Source: an uncultured Eubacteriales bacterium (GTDB taxonomy: Bacteria; Bacillota; Clostridia; Christensenellales; Aristaeellaceae). Taken from it: a stretch of 36,444 nucleotides of DNA. The notes under the pieces were generated by a model. That model was given only the letters and a program-made list of their open reading frames with translations, did no database searches and was not told the origin of the DNA. The DNA is taken from NCBI GenBank assembly GCA_902790525.1, contig CADASI010000015.1, positions 1 through 36,444 of the forward strand. The letters are read 5' to 3'. Numbering within the stretch: position 1 is the first letter of the stretch; each line of letters begins with the position of its first letter. Shown in pieces: positions 1,676 to 27,813 of this stretch. A program made the position numbers and the translations under genes.

Positions 1676-1678
1676 TTA

Positions 1679-1797
1679 GAGTGTGTTTCTAAATGCCGGG
1701 AGATGCAGTTTCGAGCGGATTTGGCTGCATTTCAAGGCGATTTTCCGCAGGCTTAGTGGGGCTAAGTCAAGGGTTCAGGCATTTTAGAAACACACTC
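1679..1797 (+). mobile_element. MITE-like element with TA flanks
   Basis: A 119-bp element with terminal inverted repeats: GAGTGTGTTTCTAAA at the left and its complement at the right. It is flanked by TA on both sides (1677-1678 and 1798-1799). Removing the element plus one TA restores the uninterrupted palindrome TTAATGCC-GTCA-GGCATTAA of the surrounding repeat, as expected for insertion at a TA target. TA duplication is typical of IS630/Tc1-mariner-type elements. No transposase is present, so it would have to be mobilised in trans. Confidence 0.7.
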
Positions 1798-3849: not shown

Positions 3850-3889
3850 AACAGCGGCGGGGGCGCCGCCCCTACAACGTGCGCGCACT

Positions 3890-4050
3890 TTGAGACAGCG
3901 CCTGCCAGACCGATGAGAAACCCGCAAGACAAGGAAGAACGGCTTGCAGATGAGGGAGCTTACCCGGTCGTAAGTGACCGATTCTGCAAGCCGTTCTGAC
4001 GCAGTAAGCAAAAAACTCTACCGATTCTTTCCGGTCGGTAGAGTTTTTTG
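3890..4050 (+). ncRNA. Candidate structured RNA with its own terminator
   Basis: The gap between two genes holds a long hairpin: arm GAACGGCTTGCAGA (3937-3950) pairs perfectly over 14 bp with 3983-3996. The inner part can form CTTAC/GTAAG (3959-3963 with 3970-3974) with loop CCGGTC. The loop segment CGGTC (3965-3969) could instead pair with GACCG at 3976-3980, or with GACCG upstream at 3908-3912 as a pseudoknot. A strong rho-independent terminator follows directly. I do not recognise an Rfam family, the 5' boundary is a guess, and no promoter was identified. Confidence 0.35.
4010..4049. terminator. Bidirectional rho-independent terminator
   Basis: AAAAAACTCTACCGA (4010-4024) and TCGGTAGAGTTTTTT (4035-4049) form a 15-bp stem including A/T tracts on both sides. 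It can therefore stop transcription from the thioesterase side and from the minus-strand transglutaminase gene. Confidence 0.9.
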
Positions 4051-4077
4051 CGGTTGCGGGATTTATCAGCGGTCTGG

Positions 4078-6450
4078 TTACGGGATGATTTCAAAGTCCC
4101 CCAATCCCCTGATCACCCGCGTCAGTATGAACCGCGCGCGCTCCATGGGCCGCATGCCCTTTTCAAACCGGGCGTAGGCCCGCAGGCCGGTCTGCACGTC
4201 GTCGCGCCGGACGGGCTTGCCGGCGTAGCGTGCGAGCGTCACAGCGCGGCTGAACGCCTCGAAGTCGGGGTTGTCCAGCTCCTTCGCCACCCGCTGGGCG
4301 AAGGCCTCCGGGCTCTCGCCGCTCTGGGGATACTGCCCCAGGTGCGCAAGCAGCGTCAGGTTGGCGCGATAGGCGATCATGGCCCCCTGGGAAGCCCGCC
4401 GGGTCTTCTTGCACAGCAGCGCCGGGTCGGCGCTCTGGAGCCGACGCCGCACCCACCAGATCAAAAGCGCAATCAGCGCCAGTATCAGCAGCACGATCAG
4501 CGCGCCCCACGCCCCGCCGCCCGCGGCGGCCTCGGGACGGTCCTCGGGTTGGTCCTCCGGGGGGAAGTCGTCCGGGTCGGGGGTGTCGTCGTCCTGCGGG
4601 TCGTCCTCCGGCTCGTCGAAGGGATGCCCCTCCGGCTCCGGCGAGGGCGTGGGCTCCTGCTGGGTGTTGTCGTTCAGGCCCGTCTGCCCGTCGTCCACGC
4701 CGTCGGCGGCCTTGGAGGAATCGTCCTCCGGCGGCACCGTGTTCCCCGGCTGATCCTCCGGGCTGTTCGCGGCGTAGCCGTACTGTTCCTCGCCCGGATC
4801 ATTGCCGGCGCCCGCCTCGCCGCCGGCGTTCGGCCCTCCGTTGGTGGCGTCAAAGGGGATCCAGCCCAGCCCCTTGAAGTACACCTCCGCCCAGGCGTGG
4901 GCTTCCATGCCGGTCAGCGTGACGGTTCCGTCCACACCGGGCCGGGCATAGTAGCCCTCGACGTAGCGCGTGGGCAGCCCCGCGATGCGCCCCATCACCG
5001 CCATGGCCGAGGCGTAGTAGCTGCAATAGCCCTGCCTGCTGTCCAGCACGAACCAGGACACGAAGTCCCTGCCCCGGGGCGGATATTCCACCTCCAGCTT
5101 ATAGCGCATGTTCTTGCGCAGGTAGTCGGCGATGGCCGCGGCGCGCTCGTAGGGATTGCGGGCGTCGGCGGTGATCTCCATGGTCAGGGCGTAGAGCCCG
5201 TCCTCGATGCCGTCGGGCAGCTGGCTGTGGGCCGAGAGGATGGGGCCGTACCGGTCGTCGTCGTCCGTCTCACCCCACAGCGCCGCCTGCATCAGCGCTT
5301 CGCCGTGCACGGGGTTCAGCGCCTCCAGGGCGTAGCTGTCCCCGCGCTCGGCCACGCGGGCCATGAACATCTCGCCCGAGGAGTTGTAGTACACCGCGTT
5401 GGACAGGGCCATGTCGAAGTCCTTCATCCTGCCGGGCACGAACAGCGTGCTGGTGCCGGAATCCAGCAGCTCCACCGACGCCCTGACCGTCTGAAACGCC
5501 TCCTCGGGGCTGTCGAAGCGCAGATCGAACACCCGCTCCCGCACCAGGCGGTGGGTGACATCGTAGTACAGATACCGGTTCTTGGGGGTGACGTCCACCC
5601 AGGAATAGCCGGTGTAGGTGGCGCGTATGGTGCCCCGCAGCAGTATGGGGGCGTCGGACGTCACACGCATCACCGCCTTGGGATCGGGATTCGCCGGGCC
5701 GCCCAGCATGGCCACGGGCTGGCCGTCCACCTCGCCGCCGTGGTTGTAGCCCTCCTCCGCGATGGAGAACGCGATGCGCTCGTGGGTGAAGTTGAAGTAC
5801 TGCTCAAACACGCTGCGCACCCGGGCGGCCAGGTTCTCCATGGGTTCCCAGGTCACCCGGCCCGCGGGCATCAGCGCGAGCGCCACGGCCACCGCCAGCG
5901 CCGAGGGCAGCAGCACCCGCAGCGCCGGGCGGTCCCGCTGCACGCCGTCGGACAGCGCAAACGCCGCCGCCCCGGCGATCAGCCCCGGCACCGACGCGGC
6001 GATGGAGGCCTGCTGGGACATGCCGTGGCTGAACACCAGCATGGCCCCGAGGATCAGTATCGCCATGGACGTGCCGCCGCGCTTATAGAGCATCAGGAAA
6101 AACAGCGCGCCGAACACCAGCGCCGCGCACACCAAAAGCGCCTGCGCGCCCGCGACGGCCTCCGCGCCCGGGGCGGCGTCCATGAGCGCGGGGACGGCCC
6201 GCAGCCGGTCCAGGTGGGTCAGCGTCCAGCCGCCGGTCATCACCGCCAGCGCCGCCAGACCGATCACCGCGCCCGCCGTGGAGTACGCCGCCAGGCCGCC
6301 GAGCAGCGCCGACAAGAGCGCCGCCAGCCACGCCCGCAGGCCCGGCGCCGCGTTGAGCGCCGTGCCGATGGTCGTCAGAGCGCTGCCCGCGAACGCCGCC
6401 GCCAGCAGCGCCGTGAGCGCGATGCGATGGAGTTTGGTATTGTTGTTCAT
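4078..6450 (-). CDS. Membrane-bound transglutaminase-like protein (TgpA-type)
   Basis: A 790-aa membrane protein in the TgpA/YebA layout. The N-terminal 200 residues hold about six hydrophobic segments. An extracytoplasmic region (200-440) precedes a transglutaminase core with catalytic triad Cys476 (RQGYCSYYA), His518 (MEAHAWAEV) and Asp534 (IPFDATNG). An acidic Pro/Asp/Glu-rich linker (about 540-640) leads to a last membrane helix (ALIVLLILALIALLIWW) and a cytoplasmic DUF4129-like tail. Such proteins typically sit with MoxR and DUF58 genes, as here on the same strand, and are thought to process or crosslink surface proteins. The substrate is unknown. ATG at 6450 has AAGG a few bases upstream. 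It is separated from DUF58 by a heptad-repeat spacer. Confidence 0.9.
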   Translation of the reverse strand: MNNNTKLHRIALTALLAAAFAGSALTTIGTALNAAPGLRAWLAALLSALLGGLAAYSTAGAVIGLAALAVMTGGWTLTHLDRLRAVPALMDAAPGAEAVAGAQALLVCAALVFGALFFLMLYKRGGTSMAILILGAMLVFSHGMSQQASIAASVPGLIAGAAAFALSDGVQRDRPALRVLLPSALAVAVALALMPAGRVTWEPMENLAARVRSVFEQYFNFTHERIAFSIAEEGYNHGGEVDGQPVAMLGGPANPDPKAVMRVTSDAPILLRGTIRATYTGYSWVDVTPKNRYLYYDVTHRLVRERVFDLRFDSPEEAFQTVRASVELLDSGTSTLFVPGRMKDFDMALSNAVYYNSSGEMFMARVAERGDSYALEALNPVHGEALMQAALWGETDDDDRYGPILSAHSQLPDGIEDGLYALTMEITADARNPYERAAAIADYLRKNMRYKLEVEYPPRGRDFVSWFVLDSRQGYCSYYASAMAVMGRIAGLPTRYVEGYYARPGVDGTVTLTGMEAHAWAEVYFKGLGWIPFDATNGGPNAGGEAGAGNDPGEEQYGYAANSPEDQPGNTVPPEDDSSKAADGVDDGQTGLNDNTQQEPTPSPEPEGHPFDEPEDDPQDDDTPDPDDFPPEDQPEDRPEAAAGGGAWGALIVLLILALIALLIWWVRRRLQSADPALLCKKTRRASQGAMIAYRANLTLLAHLGQYPQSGESPEAFAQRVAKELDNPDFEAFSRAVTLARYAGKPVRRDDVQTGLRAYARFEKGMRPMERARFILTRVIRGLGDFEIIP

Positions 6451-6468: not shown

Positions 6469-6615
6469 TTAGTTAGGAGTTAGGAGATAGGAATTAGGAA
6501 TTGATGACGACCTCTTCCGCCCCTTCAGGGGAAGGTGGCATTTGCGAAGCAAATGACGGAAGAGGTCGTAGCCCCAATTCCTAATTCCTAATTCCTCATT
6601 CCTAATTCCTCATTC
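6469..6615. repeat. Composite inverted heptad element, locus B
   Basis: The left arm (6469-6503) consists of GGAATTA-like units and the right arm (6575-6615) of TAATTCC/TCATTCC units. By eye 29 of the 36 innermost positions pair. The core is nested and palindromic: ACGACCTCTTCCG (6507-6519) with CGGAAGAGGTCGT (6558-6570), enclosing CCCCTTCAGGGG and ATTTGCGAAGCAAAT. Read on the minus strand, it starts at the TGA stop of the DUF58 gene, and that TGA is itself part of a heptad. Confidence 0.85.
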
Positions 6616-8931: not shown

Positions 8932-9327
8932 GTGATTTTGGGCATCGGACTTGACCTGTGCGACATCGGGCGCATCGAGAAGGCCATCGAAAAGGAGCAC
9001 TTTCTCGAGAGGGTGTTCACCGAGTGCGAGCGGGCGCGCATACTGGCCGCCCGGGGCGCGCGCCGGGGCGAGATCGCCGCGGGCATGTTCGCCGCGAAGG
9101 AGGCCGTGGCGAAGGCCCTGGGCACGGGCTTCGCGGGCTTCGGCCCCGACGCCGTAGAGATCCTGCCCGACGAAAACGGCCGCCCCGCCTGCACGCTGTA
9201 TAAACACGCCCTTGCGCTCGCGGGAGACGCCCGCGTGCACGTCACCGTCACCCACGAGTCCGGCTTCGCCGCCGCGACGGCGATAATTGAGAGTGGAGAG
9301 TGCAGAGTGGAGAGTGGAGATTTATAG
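8932..9327 (+). CDS. acpS: Holo-[acyl-carrier-protein] synthase
   Basis: Transfers the 4'-phosphopantetheine arm from CoA to apo-ACP, needed for fatty acid synthesis. It is 131 aa from a GTG at 8932, with GGGGGG about 7 nt upstream. A farther GTG at 8896 sits at the predicted transcription start and is disfavoured. Family motifs are the N-terminal [12 protein letters not shown] (Mg2+-binding Asp) and [15 protein letters not shown] (catalytic Glu/Lys region). [17 protein letters not shown] forms the last strands. The protein should end about there. The final residues ([11 protein letters not shown]) and stop are encoded by GAGAGTG heptads of the downstream repeat. It precedes the NAD(P)HX repair gene, a common Firmicute neighbourhood. 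Confidence 0.92.
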
Positions 9328-9433
9328 TGCCTGGGAACGGCATCGCTTCGCGGGAACAGCGCTATGGTTCCCACAAGACATCTGTGCGCGGCTGACTGTA
9401 TCTCCACTCTCCACTCTCAACTCTCCACACTCC
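9289..9433. repeat. Composite inverted heptad element, locus C
   Basis: The left arm of GAGAGTG/CAGAGTG units (9289-9320) overlaps the 3' end of acpS. The right arm of CCACTCT/CAACTCT units (9401-9433) ends at the ribosome binding site of the next gene. The core between them contains the inverted pair TGGGAAC (9332-9338) and GTTCCCA (9367-9373). It has the same plan as loci A, B and D, in the GAGAGTG family. Confidence 0.8.
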
Positions 9434-9446
9434 AAAGGAGGTTCCA

Positions 9447-18803: not shown

Positions 18804-19865
18804 ATGGATCACGAAAAGCTGTTCTTCGCGTCGGACTACATGGAAGGCGCGCATCCCGAGATAATGCGGCGTCTTGCGGAGACAAACCTGGAGAAGTCCG
18901 CGGGCTACGGCACGGACGCCTATTCGGAGGCCGCGCGCTCGAAAATCCGCGCCGCCTGCCGCGCCCCGGAGGCGGAGATCCACTTCCTGGTGGGCGGCAC
19001 GCAGGCCAACGCCACGGTGATCGACGCCATGCTGCGGCCCTGGCAGGGCGTGATCGCCGCCCGCACCGGCCACATCAGCGTGCACGAGGCGGGGGCGATA
19101 GAGTTCGGCGGCCACAAGGTGCTTGAGCTCGAGCCGGAGAACGGCAAGCTCACCGCGGCGCGGGTGCGGCAGTGCTTCGAGGCCTGGCGTGACGACGCCA
19201 ACCGCGACCACATGGTCATGCCGGGGCTTGTATACATCTCCCAGCCCACCGAGTGCGGCACGCTGTACTCCCTCGGGGAGCTTGAGGCATTGAGCGACGC
19301 CTGCCGCGCGGCGGGCATGGGGCTTTACCTGGACGGCGCGCGGCTGGCCTACGCCCTCGCCTGCCCGCAAAACGACGCGACGCTTCCCGACATCGCCCGG
19401 CTGTGCGACGCCTTCTACATCGGCGGTACCAAGTGCGGCGCGCTGTTCGGGGAGGCCGTGGTGTTCCCGAGGCCCGGCATCGCGCCTCACTTCTTCACCA
19501 TCGTCAAGCAGCACGGGGCGCTGCTGGCCAAGGGGCGCATCGCGGGCGTACAGTTCGACGCGCTGTTCACCGACGATCTCTACGGCGAGATCGGCCGCAC
19601 GGCCATCGGGGCGGCGGACCGCATCCGCGCAGCGCTTTTGAAGATGGGCTATGCCCTCGCCTTCGACAGCCCGACCAACCAAATTTTCCTGTTGTTGGAT
19701 AAAGAAAGGGCCGCCGCCCTCTCCGAGAAGCTCGAAATGAGCTTCTGGGAGCATACGGACGACGGCCGCGTGATCATGCGCATCGCCACCAGTTGGGCGA
19801 CGACGCGGGAGGATGTGGATAAGTTGATAGACTTGATGAATCAGGAGATAGGAATTAGGAGATAG
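18804..19865 (+). CDS. ltaE: Low-specificity L-threonine aldolase
   Basis: A PLP-dependent fold-type I enzyme cleaving L-threonine/allo-threonine to glycine and acetaldehyde. It is 353 aa. Motifs are the N-terminal FASDYMEGAHPEIM and GYGTDAYSEAA, cofactor region VGGTQANATVID, substrate/cofactor-contacting LDGARLAYAL, and the Schiff-base lysine near residue 210 in IGGTKCGALFGE. The ATG at 18804 follows GGGAGG by 6 nt. The last residues (QEIGIRR) and the TAG stop are encoded by GGAATTAGG-type heptads of the following repeat element, so the natural C-terminus has been replaced or extended. It is probably monocistronic and converges on the DUF4317 gene. Confidence 0.92.
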   Translation: MDHEKLFFASDYMEGAHPEIMRRLAETNLEKSAGYGTDAYSEAARSKIRAACRAPEAEIHFLVGGTQANATVIDAMLRPWQGVIAARTGHISVHEAGAIEFGGHKVLELEPENGKLTAARVRQCFEAWRDDANRDHMVMPGLVYISQPTECGTLYSLGELEALSDACRAAGMGLYLDGARLAYALACPQNDATLPDIARLCDAFYIGGTKCGALFGEAVVFPRPGIAPHFFTIVKQHGALLAKGRIAGVQFDALFTDDLYGEIGRTAIGAADRIRAALLKMGYALAFDSPTNQIFLLLDKERAAALSEKLEMSFWEHTDDGRVIMRIATSWATTREDVDKLIDLMNQEIGIRR

Positions 19866-20011
19866 GAATTAGGAATTCGGAGTGACGGGGTATAGATTTA
19901 GCTGTAACACGTAGTAGGGGCGATGCCCTCATCGCCCCTCGGATGCCCTCATCGCCCACGGATGCCCGCAGGACTGAATTCCTAATTCCTAATTCCTAAT
20001 TCCTATCTCCT
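19843..20011. repeat. Composite inverted heptad element, locus D
   Basis: The left arm (19843-19878) and right arm (19976-20011) are 36-bp inverted repeats differing at two positions by eye. Both are built from GGAATTA/GGAGATA heptads. The core (19879-19975) contains CGATGCCCTCATCGCCC-type palindromes of the CGTAGGGGCG family. The left arm is inside the end of ltaE, and the right arm ends 4 bp from the stop of the convergent DUF4317 gene. Confidence 0.9.
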
Positions 20012-26149: not shown

Positions 26150-26170
26150 CCCTACTCCCTACTCCCTAAA
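26150..26170 (-). repeat. Short heptad array at the 3' end of gltX, locus E
   Basis: About three units of GGGAGTA on the minus strand, overlapping the last codons of gltX. No inverted partner array was found here. Confidence 0.7.
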
Positions 26171-27724: not shown

Positions 27725-27807
27725 AGGGAATAGGAAATGCGGCTGCCGTGCTTCCTGTTGGAAGGAACGGCGGCAGCAGCTATTCCTAATCCCTAATCCC
27801 TAATCCC
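27725..27807. repeat. Composite inverted heptad element, locus F
   Basis: The short left arm GGGAATAGGAA (27726-27736) faces a right arm of TAATCCC heptads (27781-27807). The core pairs GCTGCCG with CGGCAGC and GCTTCC with GGAAGG around a TGTT loop. It starts (minus strand) a few bases after the galM stop. Confidence 0.65.
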
Positions 27808-27813
27808 TTTATT

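Follow-up and report, generated by a model that had tools for sequence, protein, structure and literature searches.

Matched inverted heptad arrays around palindromic cores that come and go in the gene spacers of rumen bacteria

Cyanobacteria are said to carry STRR, and Elhai reportedly wrote on small dispersed repeats in 2008. In the available account of Xanthomonas, two genomes carry 70 and 75 convergent inverted pairs of GGGAATC arrays, whose heptamers come most often as four units, are mostly intergenic, lie near the upstream gene, are under-represented between divergent genes and occur in more conserved gene neighbourhoods, generally without association with mobile elements (PMC4692102). 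Similar GGGGA(C/T)T heptamers, with few pairs, occur in Nostoc, and the available text leaves the role of both sets of arrays open (PMC4692102). Direct repeats of TAACTGA appear in the available text of a further report (PMC4679880). The arrays considered here lie scattered in the gene spacers of rumen bacteria, where the heptad elements come and go between close relatives. Compared by published description, they share with the Xanthomonas pairs the tandem heptads, mostly in fours, the intergenic position behind an upstream gene, the scarcity between divergent genes and the convergent arrangement with purine strands reading inward, but they differ in that Xanthomonas has one heptad type, with no family matching or core families in the description available, whereas here there are many heptads, matched arms, recurring cores and fast turnover (PMC4692102). 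The original prediction knew of no description of paired, inverted, family-matched arrays; paired inverted heptads prove to be in print already, in the available text of PMC4692102, while the matching of arm families was indeed not found described. Beyond that paper the literature searched, mainly titles and abstract openings with few subscription journals, held no paired, family-matched heptad arrays; nor did it hold arm family matching, core classes with jointly switching arms or element-like gain and loss, which are the features new here relative to that literature. The heptad arrays here appear to resolve into the ends of discrete elements whose gains and losses can be counted between sister species, which makes them testable.

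Other palindromic repeats bear a partial likeness to these elements. Bacterial MITEs, as characterised in the text available, are likewise short, non-coding, dispersed and intergenic and have inverted ends, whereas here there is no target duplication, no autonomous partner was found and the terminal repeats are heptad arrays (PMC10969869). The BrickBuilt MITE is described as having internal tandem repeats of 23 nt (PMC4596501). Because MITE finders are reported typically to remove low-complexity ends, heptad elements may be missed, and more heptad-ended elements may be hidden (PMC10969869). Tetris foldback elements share inverted ends of tandem subrepeats and a middle variable in content and size, and their mover has likewise not been found, but in the published outline they are eukaryotic, with tandem units of about 220 bp and with target duplications of 8–10 bp, which the pairs here lack (PMC4079207). 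REPINs also combine two inverted palindromes as one extragenic unit and are described with RAYT transposases (PMC3116915), whereas here no Y1 transposase was found in the genomes G000, G002 and G025, and several RAYT loci of the genus carry palindromes of the GGGGACGGTTC type. Rickettsia palindromic elements are tolerated in frame in genes, as are arrays in phage genes here, but are about 150 bp long, and the available text mentions no heptad arrays in them (PMC10969869).

The window, that is, the whole stretch of 36,444 nucleotides that was analysed, belongs to contig C15 of genome G000 (3.75 Mb; 3,748,196 bases in 199 contigs), and its glutamyl-tRNA synthetase shares 94% identity with those of two Clostridia MAGs from the ruminant gut, Christensenella and further Clostridia coming lower in the list. 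At locus D the two predicted 36-bp inverted arms with two mismatches (34 of 36 positions identical) enclose the predicted 97-bp palindromic core: the left arm (19843–19878, plus strand) is the purine strand, with GGAATTA/GGAGATA heptads, the core (19879–19975) has REP-like palindromes (GTAGGGGCGATGCCCTCATCGCCCC) and the right arm (19976–20011, minus strand) is pyrimidine-rich on the plus strand, with AATTCCT heptads. No promoter-like site was found in the region round D, the D element had no match in plasmid records, and at the Rfam gathering threshold 5S rRNA was the sole match in the window. A beta-eliminating-lyase-like gene (18804–19865) enters the D array and ends inside it at 19865; in G002, without the D element, this protein has a different end.

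The same plan recurs, as had been predicted, at A, B and C. Locus A has a left arm of AGAGTGC heptads (1465–1494, plus), a core (1495–1854) that by reading starts with an E1-type end (TTTTGGTTCAAATCC..GGATTTG, 1495–1530) and holds more nested repeats, and a right arm of 13.7 copies of CTCTGCA (1855–1949, minus). Locus B has AGTTAGG/AATTAGG heptads on the left (6471–6502, plus), a core with the palindromic module ACGACCTCTTCCG..CGGAAGAGGTCGT (6503–6575) and AATTCCT heptads on the right (6576–6615, minus). At C, GAGAGTG heptads (9289–9320, plus) and TCTCCAC heptads (9401–9434, minus) flank a core (9321–9400) that by reading is E2-like (TATAGTGCC..TGTGCGCGGCTGACTGTA), and the right arm stops directly before the AAAGGAGG of the following gene. 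Locus F is weaker, again as foreseen, with one good arm, a clear array of CCTAATC heptads (27785–27808, minus), opposite a short, degenerate GGGAATAGGAAAT stretch (27725–27738, plus) whose partner score is only 7.5; its core (27739–27784) is E3-like on the minus strand (GCTGCTGCCGCC..GGCAGCCGCA), and the orthologous spacer of L081 has an alike core. The heptad families assigned to each locus also stand: GAGAGTG/GTGCAGA at A and C, GGAATTA at B and D and GGGATTA at F. A one-armed GGGAGTA (CCCTACT) array lies at the 3' end of the glutamyl-tRNA synthetase gene (26150–26168, minus). Within the A core, window positions 1677–1773 hold a 97-bp element with inverted ends (TTAGAGTGTGTTTCTAAATGCC) that has dozens of matches in G001 and G002, many of them 97–100% identical and many at contig ends, and that looks like a recently active MITE or a repeat end. 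The G001 spacer orthologous to window positions 3850–4077 contains a palindromic element with ends GGGCTGTCTCAAAACGCAT and REP-like repeats between them; G000 and G002 differ there.

The heptad arrays are real and abundant, and are no artefact of one window. In 436 kb, comprising 20 sampled 20-kb stretches and the window and scanned with a cut of at least 14 matches, period 7 gave 37 arrays and periods 4, 5, 8, 10, 11 and 13 gave none; the codon-multiple periods 6, 9 and 12 gave 1, 1 and 10, and the harmonic period 14 gave 18. The main scan, with a cut of at least 12 matches, covered 834,082 bases of G000 and 1,134,532 of the about 2.9 Mb of its relative G001 (median identity 94% over 126 reciprocal gene pairs), a non-random sample of 1.97 Mb made up of the first parts of contigs and of contigs appearing in hits; the genomes analysed are, as far as shown, fragmented MAGs. 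Inverted heptad arrays, which the original prediction had proposed to seek throughout the genome and its relatives, are general in this sample, with 253 period-7 arrays (69 in G000 and 184 in G001) as against two or fewer per genome for the control periods 4, 5, 8, 10, 11 and 13.

A lower cut of 10 matches was used for pairing and gave 291 arrays in G000 and G001, of which two with ambiguous purine content were discarded; neighbours were defined as arrays less than 600 bp apart, and pairing was made without sequence similarity. A purine arm was followed by a pyrimidine arm in 106 of the 113 neighbours, the others being three purine–purine, three pyrimidine–pyrimidine and one pyrimidine–purine. 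Two arms were taken to match when their consensus heptads agreed at 6 or 7 of 7 positions, and this was so in 93 of the 106 purine-to-pyrimidine pairs, the heptads being mismatched in 13, whereas reshuffled right arms gave a mean of 27.4 and a maximum of 42 in 2,000 shuffles. With coarser family labels 88 of the 106 pairs match, against a permutation mean of 25.7 and a maximum of 40. The proposal that arms share a family beyond random pairing is thus borne out, and it holds also within one core class. In G025, purine-to-pyrimidine order was found in 27 of 30 neighbours (two pyrimidine–pyrimidine, one purine–purine), and in an extra set of 20 RAYT loci and eight small regions all 11 pairs had this order and matched at six or more of seven positions, although eight of these came from regions picked by pattern hits (five in another genus) and three from RAYT loci. 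Single arrays made up 77 of the remaining total of 289, five of them at contig edges; among the 72 testable ones a weak partner lay on the expected inner side of 21, no partner was found for 51 and none had a partner on the outer side.

Paired arms have a length peak at 30–33 bp (112 of 212), about four heptads; smaller peaks lie one heptad below (31 at 23–26 bp) and one above (11 at 37–40 bp), and the elements measure roughly 70–530 bp, commonly 100–250. Aligned E1 copies have sharp limits at the arms, with four heptads and two bases followed by the core end. Clustering of cores under a 60% coverage rule gave groups of 16 (E1), 8 (E2) and 6, six pairs and 64 singletons. Three classes of core end, with motifs picked after the cores had been seen, are nnAAATCC..GGATTT (E1), TATAG/TAAAG..GCC (E2) and AATAGyGGCTGCCGC (E3); among 133 pairs (106 plus 27 from G025), 26 have E1 at both ends, 17 E3 and 6 E2, while 34 have neither end motif and 50 have a motif at one end only or differing motifs. 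The same core class occurs with different heptad words, yet both ends carry one word. E1 elements use the arm types GAGTG, AATKGAG and AATTRGG, and their arms match in 25 of 26 (within-class reshuffling gave 11.4, maximum 20); E3 arms match in 16 of 17 (expected 8.7, maximum 15). The six matches among six E2 elements are uninformative because this class has a single arm type. The matching of E1 and E3 arms across differing words indicates that arms and cores are separable, and arms from each other much less so.

Arms and core disperse as a unit. Among 164 full-length pairs of elements (the alignment covering 85% or more of the longer one), 152 have both 60-nt flanks unrelated, their likeness not exceeding that of 99% of random flanks, which agrees with the earlier suggestion of an element that copies its ends. 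The best identity with unrelated flanks is 92.0% and the next 90.6%; copies of higher identity comprise an orthologous pair at 99.2%, a pair at 98.8% alike on one flank, and E2 copies at 93.6–95.3%, which also share flanks and so spread inside a larger repeat. In the aligned E3 pair, at 89.9%, some bases are common beyond one arm.

Elements are also present in one close relative and absent from another. Comparison of orthologous spacers, as had been proposed, covered 55 spacers of at least 40 bp in G000 and G001: 36 are array-free, seven are occupied in both genomes and 12 in just one, so that 12 of the 19 spacers with arrays differ in occupancy, and the 12 empty partners have no array even at six matches. 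Occupancy is nevertheless correlated between the genomes (Fisher p = 0.005), which indicates that some spacers are reused. G002 has an empty site at D, its gene stopping sooner with hardly any spacer left; between G000 and G001 the middle of the D core is replaced and both arms keep their family. At B the core and left arm differ between G000 and G001, and at C, G001 differs in the core and both arms while G002 has the arm family of G000 with another core. In the gltX spacer, L081 has an F-like core with GGGAACA arms (GGGATTA in the window; left in gene order), L084 has a small GGGAACA palindrome, and L082 and L117 are almost without a spacer. A search for empty sites by joined flanks gave a junction-spanning match for 10 of 130 elements, mostly untidy, D in G002 being the cleanest; sites with and without the element frequently diverge across tens of surrounding bases, and few events are clean for that reason. 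In one nested case, in G025, the arm families are ordered A-B-B-A.

We think it probable, though by no means firmly so, that the elements form several related families of mobile DNA, short, palindromic and non-autonomous, of MITE or REP-like kind and with heptad-built ends. At each end stand some four heptads (about 30 bp) whose purine-rich strand reads inward, and in many elements a class-specific core end comes next. A putative trans-acting machine would read the heptads and require both ends to be of one family, and the arms would match for that reason. Copies may persist mainly in spacers directly behind stop codons, where insertion would be cheapest; later, slippage may alter arm length and cores may gather further insertions. 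Several results weigh against this reading: the lack of target duplication and, in the samples scanned, of an autonomous copy, the failure of both candidate mover families to track abundance, the many single arrays, the 13 mismatched pairs, the bare array in a phage portal gene, the flanks shared by the most alike E2 copies and by one E3 pair, and the scarcity of clean events.

A serious rival, though one to which we give only limited credence, dispenses with a transposase: template-switching or break repair would paste hairpin-prone pieces (an arm, an arm with its core, or a REP module) into breaks or spacers with few bases lost, and families would spread because donors are common. Such copying accords with the lack of target duplication, since in the 133 pairs the longest direct match within 20 nt is 3.57 against a null of 3.63, with no excess, and it accords with the many single arms and the nested mixtures of modules. 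In viral contigs the E1 core word had no match, while the word GGGAACAGGGAACAGGAATAGC matched four IMG/VR contigs, with one-armed or stacked arrays. Phage portal, major head, minor head and terminase families are matched by four proteins of L297 and tail tape measure families by one of L296; the two proteins tested in L298 match uncharacterised phage families. The portal gene of L297 has, in a short variable stretch, a bare in-frame array of 30 bp without core or partner arm; it is present in four near-identical contigs (L299–L302) and absent from six relatives (L303–L308), the contigs with the array being 18 bases longer in the aligned stretch than five array-free relatives, while L308 has a different repeat-like module at the site. 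On this alignment the portal case is an insertion in which about 12 target bases were lost (net gain 18), with neither a target duplication nor a partner arm; it accords with transposase-free copying, as does the differing module of L308, and such a bare array is hard to reconcile with a two-ended transposon. By itself, however, transposase-free copying explains neither the strict purine-to-pyrimidine polarity (106 against one in the reverse order), nor the arm-length peak and the matched arms within a core class, nor the near absence of arrays from some species. In L298 (5863–7269), an uncharacterised phage gene has an in-frame array followed by AATAGCC and an in-frame CCTTCCCC..GGGGAAGG hairpin module.

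It is conceivable, if doubtful, that the arrays belong to an undescribed class of mobile DNA in which a putative trans-acting machine reads four-heptad ends in many words but requires the two ends to agree, carries any core without target duplication and can also paste a bare end, even in frame into phage genes, and that the Xanthomonas and perhaps the cyanobacterial arrays are of the same class. If such a machine read heptads whatever the word, its recognition of ends would, to our knowledge, be unlike that of known transposon ends.

Concerted evolution in place is an improbable explanation. Slippage would build arms round a hairpin, and copying of arm onto arm through cruciform or hairpin repair would keep them alike, which fits the varying copy number of arms, the orthologous F spacer with its alike core and arms of GGGATTA in the window but GGGAACA in L081, and locus C, where the arms on both sides differ in family between G000/G002 and G001 (the core differing too). 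It also fits the coarse families, in which arms within an element are more alike than arms between elements (0.75 vs 0.68; 0 of 5,000 permutations; 87 elements), mostly in the GAGTG and AATTGGG groups. In fine heptad families this excess is gone: for elements that share their left consensus heptad, likeness is 0.707 within and 0.709 between elements (p = 0.55, 92 elements), and with both heptads equal there is again no within-element excess (p = 0.87, 67 elements), in a test that is conservative because it is conditioned on the consensus heptad. In-place evolution is further opposed by the occurrence of the same core and arms, up to 92.0% alike, at unrelated loci. Copying of one arm onto the other is accordingly not favoured by the fine test, though the coarse test shows an excess, and we read the fine-family result as subfamily matching, with ends inherited within an element family.

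With genes called and codons modelled by an author-written script rather than a published caller, element edges lie a median of 9 bp from gene 3' ends (58 of 185 overlapping) and 60 bp from gene starts, and at D and several GGGAGTA/GGGAACA singles the array extends to the stop codon or seems to provide it. Of 183 elements, 173 were classified as lying in tandem (117), convergent (34) or divergent (22) spacers, three were inside genes and seven at contig edges; spacer length predicts 103, 27 and 43.5 (chi-square against spacer counts, p = 0.012). The claim that none lies in a divergent region holds inside the window but fails in this larger sample, where the 22 of 173 are about half the expectation. 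This depletion and the proximity to gene 3' ends, together with the folding of D as RNA at −91.5 kcal/mol (z −10.1, as expected of a 36-bp inverted pair), would suit a selected RNA hairpin acting as terminator or stabiliser of mRNA 3' ends, as the original prediction had entertained, but this is very improbable given that in fine families the arms of one element are as unlike as those of different elements (p = 0.55), that T-runs occur within 16 nt outside only 5 of 265 arms (1.9%, against 3.9% of random spacer windows), that no terminator-like site was found round D, that orthologous spacers differ in presence and absence, and that some species of the same genus are almost array-free. An intrinsic terminator was discarded on the same T-run count and the lack of a terminator-like site round D.

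Species within a single genus differ widely in their arrays, some being saturated and others almost devoid of them. Exact matches to one heptad pattern number from 0 to 922 per genome, with 23 of the 28 genus genomes positive, as are 17 of 272 other family members sampled; a second pattern is found in 15 of the 28. A direct scan of G025 found 71 arrays in 190 kb, whereas scans of 100 kb each in G022 and G024 found one array apiece, that of G022 being neither purine- nor pyrimidine-rich, and neither of these two genomes has a genome-wide match to either pattern.

Two families of candidate mover were tested, Y1 (RAYT) transposases and reverse transcriptases, and neither tracks array abundance. 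No Y1 transposase was found in G000, G002 or G025 (MAGs 95, 76 and 95% complete), while 16 of the 28 genus genomes have one, including the near-array-free G024; heptad arrays occur in two of 20 RAYT loci, none nearer than 800 bp. RAYT was set aside as mover since it was not found in these three genomes and no heptad array adjoins a RAYT gene in the 20 loci. Reverse transcriptase, which a retroelement-driven repeat should have wherever elements abound, was set aside likewise, RVT_1 having no match in G001, G002, G010 and G025 and three matches in G000. As to an autonomous copy, no two single matching arms lie 600–6,000 bp apart in the 1.97 Mb of G000 and G001, and the 190 kb of G025 hold two doubtful long purine-to-pyrimidine spans (L247, 133–5145; L254, 12177–14064). 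Several of the RAYT-like Y1 genes in L267–L286 are flanked by GGGGACGGTTC / GGGACAGGTTCC palindromes, and these are apparently ordinary REP-RAYT systems.

Two further arrangements were noted. In L296 (1298–1389 and 8163–8260, minus strand) two heptad modules of like orientation come one after the other, with AATAGCC behind each, and stacking of this kind occurs also in C19 of G000 and in C1 and C8 of G001; it suggests stepwise addition of modules. Inside E1 cores of L249 (about 2380–2590) and L254 (about 5075–5325) lies an element with ends GTAACTGTTCAG..CTGAACAGATAC or CTGAATAGATAC, flanked, on reading, by 8-bp direct repeats (CCGCAAGG; GAAATCCG), an ordinary target-duplicating MITE alongside the heptad elements.
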